A stretch of DNA of 64,000 bases from a bacterium SCSIO 12741 (lineage in GTDB: Bacteria; Bacteroidota; Bacteroidia; Flavobacteriales_G; Salibacteraceae), in the NCBI GenBank assembly GCA_024398055.1, contig CP073749.1, positions 3,596,594-3,660,593 of the forward strand, in the 5' to 3' direction. Numbering within the stretch: position 1 is the first letter of the stretch; every line of letters begins with the position of its first letter. The translations under genes were made by a program, and so were the position numbers. Of this stretch, positions 21,085 through 39,994 are shown piece after piece. The notes beneath the pieces are model-generated. The model saw nothing but the letters and a program-made list of their open reading frames with translations. It was not told where the DNA came from and did not search any database.

Positions 21085-21252
21085 CAATTTTCAATCTTCA
21101 GGATCAATTTTAAATTTTCAATTATAAGGAGTACTCACTTCGTTCGTGAGGTGGTTGACTATGTTGCTCATCACAAATCCCGACTTTCGGATCAAAGATC
21201 CGAAGGAGATAGAAATTGAAAATTGACCCTAAAAATTTAAGATTTAAGATTG
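21085..21252. repeat. Heptad inverted repeat, copy B
   Basis: The left arm (21085-21126) reads in 7-base steps of CAATYTT/AATTTTM type. The right arm (21212-21252) reads GAAATTG, AAAATTG, then AAATTTA, AGATTTA, AGATTG. The arms are imperfect reverse complements. Between them are two small hairpins: CTCAC/GTGAG around TTCGTTC, and CGGATC/GATCCG with an AAA loop. The right arm carries TTGACCCTAAAAAT, nearly the same as in copy C. It sits between two convergent genes. Confidence 0.55.
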
Positions 21253-25003: not shown

Positions 25004-25192
25004 TTAAGGTTAAATCTTAAACGCTAAATCCTGGAGCTGCCTACGAACCACTTAAGATTTAAAATTGCCCCTTAAGATTTAAGATTGAATAGAAAAAGGG
25101 CAATCATATATGTTAATTCTTAAACGCTAAGGCCTCAAGCCAAAAGCGCCCCATTTATTCAAGATTCAAGATTGACCCTGAAAATTGAAAAT
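25004..25192. repeat. Heptad inverted repeat, copy C (two nested pairs)
   Basis: The first pair has a left arm with TTAAGGT, TAAATCT, TAAACGC, TAAATCC (25004-25031) and a right arm with TTAAGAT, TTAAAAT and two further TTAAGAT units (25052-25085). The second pair has a left arm TTAATTC, TTAAACG (25113-25126) and a right arm TTCAAGA twice, TTGACCC, TGAAAAT twice (25158-25192). Both left arms contain TCTTAAACGCTAA. Together with about 160 bases of unassigned sequence (24856-25003) this fills the gap between pyrR and rpsA. I see no gene in it. Confidence 0.55.
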
Positions 25193-25231
25193 TAAAAAAC
25201 CCCTCCTGCCAAAGACAGATGAGGGGTTTTT
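25193..25231 (-). terminator. Terminator of rpsA
   Basis: AACCCCTC and GAGGGGTT form the stem around a 15-base loop; on the minus strand it is followed by a T run. It lies 45 bases after the rpsA stop. Confidence 0.85.
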
Positions 25232-37772: not shown

Positions 37773-38282
37773 ATGACAGCGGAAGAAAAACAAGGAATGA
37801 TTCAACGGGTCCGGAGTATTTTAAATACCATTCCGGACCCCGAAATTCCTGTTATCTCCATTGTTGAGTTAGGCGTTATCCGAGGAGTTTCTATCGGAGA
37901 TGATGCTCAAATTATCATCGACCTTACACCGACCTATTCAGGCTGTCCGGCTACGGAGGCCTTCATGAAAGATATTCGTACGACCTTAGGTAAGGAAGGC
38001 TACGATTCCATTCATATTAATACGGTTTACGATCCTGCGTGGACCACTGAATGGATGAGTGATGAAGCCCGTGAAAAGCTGAGAAAATACGGTATTGCTC
38101 CACCCGAAAAGGGAACCCACGACAAAGGAGTACTCTTTGCATCCGGTCCCAAAAGCGTCGCCTGCCCCCAATGCGACTCCAGAGATACCCAACTTATCAG
38201 CCAATTTGGATCTACGGCCTGTAAGTCTCTGTACAAATGCAATAACTGCTTAGAGACATTCGACTACTTTAAGTGCATTTAG
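37773..38282 (+). CDS. paaD: PaaD, Fe-S maturation factor for the epoxidase (MIP18 family)
   Basis: 169 residues. The N-terminal DUF59/MIP18 part has IPDPEIPVISIVELGVIRGV and LTPTYSGCPATEAF. The C-terminal zinc-ribbon-like part has CPQC and CNNC pairs and ends in CI. PaaD is needed for epoxidase function, probably through Fe-S assembly on PaaE. It is the last gene of paaABCD; the heptad repeat of copy D begins on the base after the stop codon. Confidence 0.93.
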   Translation: MTAEEKQGMIQRVRSILNTIPDPEIPVISIVELGVIRGVSIGDDAQIIIDLTPTYSGCPATEAFMKDIRTTLGKEGYDSIHINTVYDPAWTTEWMSDEAREKLRKYGIAPPEKGTHDKGVLFASGPKSVACPQCDSRDTQLISQFGSTACKSLYKCNNCLETFDYFKCI

Positions 38283-38436
38283 AATCTTCAATCTTCAACG
38301 TTTAATCTTGAATCTTCAAGTTTTGAGAAGCGAAGAGTCGAGATTGGAGATTTGAGATGCGAGAGTCGAGAAACGATATTCAAGACTGAAGATTGGAGAT
38401 TCAAGATTGGAGATTCGAGATCCGAGATCCGAGATT
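38283..38436. repeat. Heptad repeat array, copy D (22 units in one register)
   Basis: The 154 bases divide exactly into 22 units of 7. The first six units are of the AATCTTC type (38283-38324). The next 16 are of the GAGATTS type (38325-38436), and AATCTTC is the reverse complement of GAAGATT, so the two blocks are in opposite orientation without a spacer. Units vary at one to three positions. The array begins immediately after the paaD stop and ends 42 bases before the next ATG. A long imperfect hairpin would form in RNA. Confidence 0.75.
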
Positions 38437-38478
38437 GATCATCAAAATTCGTATCTTGCACCTGAAATACTGACCGTT

Positions 38479-38826
38479 ATGAAGATTCTAACACTCTTTT
38501 TTCTTTTAGCACTGTACCCGAGTATGTATCTCTCGGCCAATGCTGATGCCATTTCTACCAGCCAATCTCCGGAAGATTATACCGAATGGACGACCGAATC
38601 TCCGAGTCAGGAGCTAAGCGTTGAATCTTTGGAAAATGGAGATGATGATGGTCCGATTAAGCCCTTCCATCAGTCCCACGCCAAAAAAATGGTGGATAAG
38701 AAAAAGGGACTCCGAAAAGCTAAGTGGGACAAAGCAGGAGAGGTGGCCGTTGAGGTGCTATGTGTAGTAGCCGAAGTCACCTTTTGCATCGCCATCGAGT
38801 TAGTAGCCGAGCTGCTTCTTTGTTAG
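38479..38826 (+). CDS. Small exported or membrane protein of unknown function
   Basis: About 115 residues. The signal peptide-like start (MKILTLFFLLALYPSMYLSANA) is followed by an acidic Ser/Thr-rich stretch, a basic KKMVDKKKGLRKAKW region and a final hydrophobic helix rich in Val, Glu and Cys (EVLCVVAEVTFCIAIELVAE) that ends LLLC. It resembles small Bacteroidota envelope peptides, but I do not recognise a family. An upstream in-frame ATG at 38407 would run through the heptad array and is rejected. Confidence 0.55.
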   Translation: MKILTLFFLLALYPSMYLSANADAISTSQSPEDYTEWTTESPSQELSVESLENGDDDGPIKPFHQSHAKKMVDKKKGLRKAKWDKAGEVAVEVLCVVAEVTFCIAIELVAELLLC

Positions 38827-39217: not shown

Positions 39218-39994
39218 ATGGAATCCATACGCTTTGAAATTCAGGATGGTCTGGCCGTAATTCGATTGAACAGACCCGATAAATTGAACAGTTTTAACCG
39301 CGAAATGGCTTTGGCCATGCAAGAAAAATTGGACACCTGTGCTCAGGATGATTCCATTCGTGCGGTTTTGATCACCGGAGAGGGAAGAGCTTTTTGTGCC
39401 GGACAAGATTTGGCCGAAGCTATTGATCCTAATGGACCTGGATTGACCAACATTGTTGATCAGCATTACAATCCCATGGTATTAAAAATTGCTGCTTTGG
39501 AAAAACCAGTAATTGCCGCGGTAAATGGAGTGGCTGCCGGCGCCGGTGCTAACCTGGCCTTGGCCTGCGACATCGTTGTAGCAACCCAATCTTCTTCCTT
39601 CATTCAAGCCTTTAGTGCCATTGGTTTGGTGCCAGATACCGGAGGTACCTATTTTCTACCTCGATTAATCGGTTGGCAAAAGGCCTCGGCTCTAATGATG
39701 TTGGGGGATAAGATTAAGGCCGACGAAGCCGAACGAATGAACATGATTTACCGCAGTATTCCAGATGAGGAATTTGAAGCCGAAATCATGAAGCTGGGTG
39801 CCCGTTTAGCTAAGATGCCTACACGTGGTTTAGCCTTGACTAAAAAAGCTCTTCAACTATCTCAGGAACAGGATTTAGCTGCTCAATTGGATAGCGAACG
39901 AGATTTACAGACCGAAGCCGGACAAACCCACGATTATAGCGAAGGAGTAAATGCCTTCCTGGAAAAAAGAAAACCCGCTTTTAAAGGAGCCTGA
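39218..39994 (+). CDS. paaG: PaaG-type enoyl-CoA hydratase/isomerase
   Basis: 258 residues, crotonase fold. GEGRAFCAGQDLAE is the oxyanion-hole motif, and LVPDTGGTYFLPRLIG, with the catalytic Asp, is typical of PaaG. PaaG turns the ring-1,2-epoxide into oxepin-CoA. The end is EGVNAFLEKRKPAFKG, also typical. It is followed after 13 bases by paaH. The nearby paaABCD cluster supports the assignment over a general enoyl-CoA hydratase (PaaF). Confidence 0.88.
   Translation: MESIRFEIQDGLAVIRLNRPDKLNSFNREMALAMQEKLDTCAQDDSIRAVLITGEGRAFCAGQDLAEAIDPNGPGLTNIVDQHYNPMVLKIAALEKPVIAAVNGVAAGAGANLALACDIVVATQSSSFIQAFSAIGLVPDTGGTYFLPRLIGWQKASALMMLGDKIKADEAERMNMIYRSIPDEEFEAEIMKLGARLAKMPTRGLALTKKALQLSQEQDLAAQLDSERDLQTEAGQTHDYSEGVNAFLEKRKPAFKGA

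Follow-up and report, generated by a model that had tools for sequence, protein, structure and literature searches.

Facing arms of degenerate heptads behind paaD in bacterium SCSIO 12741

Introduction

Directly behind paaD, a gene of the phenylacetate pathway in bacterium SCSIO 12741, the DNA is built of seven-nucleotide units. What is this array, how may it have arisen, and does it serve the gene whose end it adjoins? That the intergenic DNA of bacteria is unusually rich in heptamers has been on record since 2007 (per PMC4692102), and there is no accepted explanation of the number seven. Moreover, arrays parting genes that overlap in relatives may alter operon expression and gene annotation. 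The locus is considered here within its window, the whole analysed stretch of 64,000 nt, and against a sample of the same chromosome and the genomes of relatives.

Structure of the element behind paaD

The paaD gene (37773-38282, + strand; FeS_assembly_P and PaaD zinc ribbon; PF23451, E 7.8e-22; PF01883, E 5.9e-13) ends with a TAG at 38280-38282. Over positions 38283-38436, identity at lag 7 is 0.694, compared with 0.265 ± 0.040 in dinucleotide shuffles (n = 5000, maximum 0.42), while neighbouring short lags give just 0.1-0.3 and TRF detects period 7 in both halves of the element. The first-pass annotation had claimed a period-7 repeat and tied it to an excess at lag 7 over shuffled sequence; that excess is present, with 0 of the 5000 shuffles reaching the observed value, and the repeat is thereby confirmed.

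The units of each arm were scored one by one against a profile of the heptads in the chromosome sample ([A/G]A[G/A]ATT[C/G]), in which some positions are nearly fixed and others variable. The left arm (38282-38323, − strand) consists of six heptads of the SAATNNT type, in the order GAATCTT, CAATCTT, CAACGTT, TAATCTT, GAATCTT and CAAGTTT (3.3-10.2 bits per unit), and its first base, 38282, is the final G of the paaD TAG. The right arm (38333-38437, + strand) carries fifteen heptads of the [A/G]A[G/A]ATT[C/G] type (0.2-9.6 bits; TRF 38334-38436, 14.7 copies, period 7). Between them lies a junction of 9 nt, TGAGAAGCG (38324-38332), which matches neither arm and scores negative in both arm phases. 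Read on the opposite strand, the left-arm word AATCTTC becomes GAAGATT, one variant of the word used on the right, and the arms are thus oriented towards each other.

The element had first been described as 22 heptads in one register, flipping orientation without a spacer and starting on the base after the stop. The heptads and the change of orientation stand, whereas the count becomes 21 scorable units, 6 + 15, around the junction. Likewise, the array does adjoin the stop, but it starts inside the TAG rather than on the base after it. The single register carried across the flip is a coincidence, as the phase offsets of 24 arm pairs genome-wide take all seven values and the shared register at paaD is therefore no feature of the element. 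The heptads are degenerate, which is not what plain slippage of one unchanged unit gives, and their non-coding origin is also supported. Downstream, the heptad element is followed first by a small ORF with a signal-peptide-like start (38479-38826, + strand, no Pfam match) and then by a paaG-like enoyl-CoA hydratase gene (39218-39994, + strand; PF00378, E 9.7e-67).

Heptad arrays across the chromosome

The sample covered 1.56 Mb of a chromosome of 5.10 Mb and was partly picked around pattern matches, so that its density, some 30 intergenic arrays per Mb, is approximate. It contains 25 lag-7 regions, compared with 0, 1, 0 and 1 at lags 5, 8, 10 and 11; the other raised lags are 6, 9 and 12 (8-9 regions each, codon multiples), 13 (3) and the harmonic 14 (19). 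The heptad profile found 98 arms of at least 20 bits versus 7 in a reversed control, and these arms group into 58 clusters, 48 of which lie outside predicted genes. Chance, a compositional artefact or an assembly error is a negligible prospect as the source of the heptads, given that excess of arms, the failure of any shuffle at paaD to attain the observed identity and the presence of similar arrays in many independent assemblies; no point in favour of an artefact was found. Exact dimers occur on both strands (19 forward, 20 reverse), and the idea that all arrays lie on one chromosome strand was rejected on these counts, the apparent bias being a listing artefact.

The arrays have a polarity and a preferred place. 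Where two arms face each other, AATCTTS precedes SAGATTS in 22 clusters and follows it in 3 (p 1.6e-4). The elements end at most 10 nt from a stop in 20 of 52 cases and from a start in 1 of 43 (p 1.1e-5), where single distances may be off because the gene calls are simple ORF predictions. When the stricter lag-7 set was taken alone (15 co-oriented cases in this genome), the tendency to lie nearer to the stop was not significant. Convergent gaps are enriched for elements (12/47 vs 66/572, p 0.01), several of them being occupied by an array from stop to stop, and elements are present in divergent gaps too. Different elements of the genome share 21-mers in 11 pairs versus 1.4 expected.

The window itself holds three further heptad elements. 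The second (898-1006) has left words GAATTCT/GAATTTT and right words CAAAATT/CAACATT and starts 5 nt past a + strand gene ending at 892. The third (21085-21252) lies between convergent genes whose stops are 8 and 15 nt away, and a fourth, weaker one (25054-25198) has right-arm words only.

Words and turnover among relatives

Lag-7 arrays recur across Bacteroidota, related genomes having been proposed as a check from the outset, and they do so in other words. The dimer GAGATTSGAGATTS is nearly absent from 40 relatives, and arrays at the paaD loci of other Bacteroidota use TTAGANN, CCAACNT, TAACTGA and more, while the non-Bacteroidota paaD loci from the same search have no lag-7 arrays. For example, near paaD of an uncultured Bacteroidetes (L127, 707-787), TAACTGA heptads form two arms that face each other, as the GAGATTS heptads do here. 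Of 395 Bacteroidota genomes, 174 contain the exact SAATNNT trimer, and Acinetobacter has it chiefly in perfect arrays that stand singly. One conserved phylum-wide word was nevertheless rejected, as the reversed control pattern, which covers TAACTGA-like words, also matches many genomes. These findings bear on the possibility that a DNA- or RNA-binding protein recognises the arrays, reading them in 7-nt steps and requiring particular bases at only some positions of the unit. The nearly fixed and variable positions of the profile and the recurrence of the SAATNNT form are consistent with such a protein; nonetheless it is quite unlikely, as the words change from genome to genome and inside single genomes and are missing from a congener, and the control matches speak against any single conserved word.

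Gene order allows the arrays to be followed more closely in another genome of the same class, G342, and its congener G466. G342 has 49 lag-7 elements in 400 kb, in several words. In its co-oriented gaps the element lies at a median of -1 nt from the stop and 29 nt from the next start, and is nearer to the stop in 23 of 29. Arms are mirrored beyond what heptad shuffling produces (30 pairs, summed energy -2194.6 vs -1935.6 ± 29.2), and exact 35-mers are common to 16 element pairs versus 0.25 expected. G466 keeps the gene order, with 66-79% nucleotide identity in the longer matches, and 150 kb of it contain no lag-7 arrays. At nine orthologous gene pairs with a G342 element, G466 has no element and a shorter gap in each, for example -4 nt instead of 249, -4 instead of 126, 8 instead of 221 and 2 instead of 49; two of the G466 pairs thus share 4 nt, and another two are separated by 2 and 8 nt. 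In one divergent pair the gap is barely shorter (174 to 165 nt). The coding parts align as far as the stop, and the array usually starts right there. The stops beside G342 elements are often of a type unlike that of the G466 orthologue, and several sit in heptad-like sequence, as though the array supplied the stop (L208-L217 vs L230-L237).

At the paa locus, six relatives (L104, L105, L106, L107, L110, L154) have between -1 and 159 nt from paaD to the enoyl-CoA hydratase gene; here the distance is 935 nt and takes in the array and the small ORF of no Pfam family. An exception is L112, with a gap of about 740 nt in which no array was found. The six relatives have no room for the small ORF (38479-38826) between paaD and the paaG-like gene. 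Because the G466 gaps are free of arrays and the paa gap is short in relatives, the arrays appear lineage-specific and dispensable over short times; the turnover itself was seen between G342 and G466 and not directly at paaD of SCSIO 12741. With the two congeners alone, a gain in either lineage would look the same as a loss in its counterpart. Such a pair, one rich in arrays and one without them in conserved gene order, nevertheless renders the origin of the arrays testable.

Folding and gene 3' ends

The whole element has hairpin potential (38270-38450, + strand): the sense strand, whose folding had been suggested as a check, reaches -54.4 kcal/mol (z -2.95) and the antisense strand -37.7 (z -1.58), a difference for which G-U pairing may be largely responsible. 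When heptads were shuffled within the arms of 17 arm pairs of this genome, folding was no weaker (observed -464.6, shuffled -474.5 ± 13.0), and the pairing therefore stems from the common word and not from matched single units. A selected, exactly paired hairpin was accordingly rejected for SCSIO 12741. Sense was not significantly more stable than antisense, either in this genome (7/15, p 0.48) or in G342 (20/29, p 0.11), and selection at the RNA level through such an asymmetry was likewise rejected.

The array could still act as a functional RNA hairpin at the 3' end, i.e. as a terminator or attenuator of the paa operon or a 3' stabiliser of its mRNA, and as a bidirectional one between convergent genes. 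Well-folding sense RNA, element ends close to stops and not to starts, and the enrichment in convergent gaps all point in that direction, as do two of the nine orthologous G466 gaps, which hold intrinsic-terminator-like sequence where G342 has heptads. Even so, this role seems unlikely. The first-pass annotation had noted that the paaD element lacks a T tract, and this is borne out: a search within the element for an intrinsic terminator (a G+C-rich stem plus T tract) gave no match. Neither strand is significantly the stabler, the arm order is unmatched in this genome, and arrays are present in divergent gaps as well and part genes whose congener orthologues overlap. Judged by gene-order comparison, the lineage-specificity of the arrays argues against their being conserved terminators.

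Transposases

A mobile element akin to REP/BIME or MITE, mobilised in trans by a RAYT or another transposase, would account for arrays that are dispersed and lineage-specific. In agreement with it, Y1_Tnp is matched four times in G342 and not at all in G466, and REP-like palindromes occur in some of the G342 loops (GTGCGAGACC..GGTCTCGCAC in L216, G342:C1:274872-275178, and GTCGCCAGAGGCGAC in L220, G342:C1:847992-848244). Such an element is very unlikely, however. Strong Y1_Tnp matches are found in 16 of 24 heptad-rich genomes and 19 of 37 zero-word genomes (p 0.29), the latter being defined by SAATNNT and reversed patterns only and possibly including genomes with other heptad words; RAYT as the driver was rejected on this lack of association. 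SCSIO 12741 itself has just two weak Y1_Tnp matches (34 bits or less) and none at E 1e-10. No fixed termini were seen, lengths and words being variable: reading 38270-38450 for a GTAG/CGTC-tagged palindrome of 20-40 nt gave none, and constant ends of the MITE kind were not seen at nine G342/G466 loci. DDE_Tnp_1 is slightly commoner in heptad-rich genomes (10/24 vs 6/37, p 0.04), and it is absent from SCSIO 12741 and G342 at that cut-off.

Probable origin

The reading we favour, and to which an even chance may be given, is that the two inverted arms at paaD make up a minisatellite of degenerate heptads, that is, lineage-specific, self-expanding intergenic DNA formed by slippage, template switching and spread. 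Arrays of this kind are probably tolerated DNA rather than a dedicated part of the gene, and we infer that they have no essential role. Slippage in steps of 7 nt would extend an arm, template switching across the hairpin would copy the array into an opposite arm, and recombination or gene conversion would carry the same words between loci, a sequence of events suggested by the mirrored arms and cross-locus sharing observed in heptad-rich G342. The array would occupy the tolerant space immediately past a gene's final essential codon, including inside operons, and would then decay through point mutation. The paaD element may be such a decayed member, and an unmatched arm order, as in its genome, is expected after decay.

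A young stage may be seen in Vibrio sp. THAF190c, where a plasmid (NZ_CP045339.1; L250, 1473-1619) carries what looks like one: a near-perfect (CGAGATG)n array right behind an ORF that closes with TAG at 1485 and facing a convergent ORF, with no annotation beneath. The heptad GAGATGC is also present in SCSIO 12741 (C1:270741). A phage or plasmid origin of the arrays was rejected, there being no phage match and one Vibrio plasmid match, by word only.

Simple slippage leaves unexplained why the same words stand at many loci, what keeps the order of the arms constant (22:3) and how the step comes to be seven, and the preference for stop codons could equally reflect a function at 3' ends. An alternative to passive slippage is a dedicated enzymatic process, common to Bacteroidota and working in a 7-nt step, which would build facing arms of fixed polarity at stops in lineage-specific words and renew, inside one genus, the 3' ends of hundreds of genes. 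We regard this as unlikely.

Comparison with known heptamer arrays

A search of the literature for the array sequences found none, and Rfam covariance models have no match in the window. The kind of array is nevertheless present in the literature, so that the question whether this DNA belongs to a known repeat family is answered negatively by Rfam alone, and the earlier statement that no element of this form had been described is mistaken. The GGGANTN arrays of Xanthomonas and GGGGAYT arrays of Nostoc are heterogeneous intergenic heptamer arrays; they often form inverted pairs near where the upstream ORF ends, are scarcer between divergent genes and have no known function (PMC4692102). The present arrays resemble them in their 7-nt units in register with variable positions, their intergenic location and dispersal on both strands, their close inverted pairs (22 clusters -+ and 3 +-) and their proximity to the upstream ORF end over the next start. 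In contrast, the Xanthomonas and Nostoc units are G-rich and form G-quadruplexes, whereas those here are A/T-rich without G runs, and both lineage and word differ. The units of the paaD element contain no GGG, and it therefore belongs to the broader heptamer kind and not to the GGGANTN family.

TAACTGA heptamer arrays are known from Beggiatoaceae, Cyanobacteria and five Bacteroidetes (PMC4679880). They too are intergenic, and their Bacteroidetes cases have mixed heptamers, an array directly past a stop, and relatives with shorter, repeat-free gaps. Unlike them, the unit here is SAATCTT / SAGATTS, and the Beggiatoaceae arrays lie mostly just upstream of starts in one orientation, whereas those here lie at stops in two facing arms. 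A fixed arm polarity in this phylum, a mirrored order and a presence/absence comparison between congeners were not found in a literature search largely confined to openly accessible papers.

The STRR heptanucleotide repeats of filamentous cyanobacteria are short tandem 7-nt repeats too and, judged by their description in the literature, resemble the present ones; heptanucleotides of this sort in Calothrix are mentioned in PMC4692102. REP/BIME palindromes with RAYT are likewise dispersed intergenic inverted repeats near gene ends; to our knowledge REPs have no 7-nt units, and the arrays here show no GTAG tag and no RAYT association. In sum, the paaD element has the general features of the described heptamer arrays and is spelled in words other than theirs.
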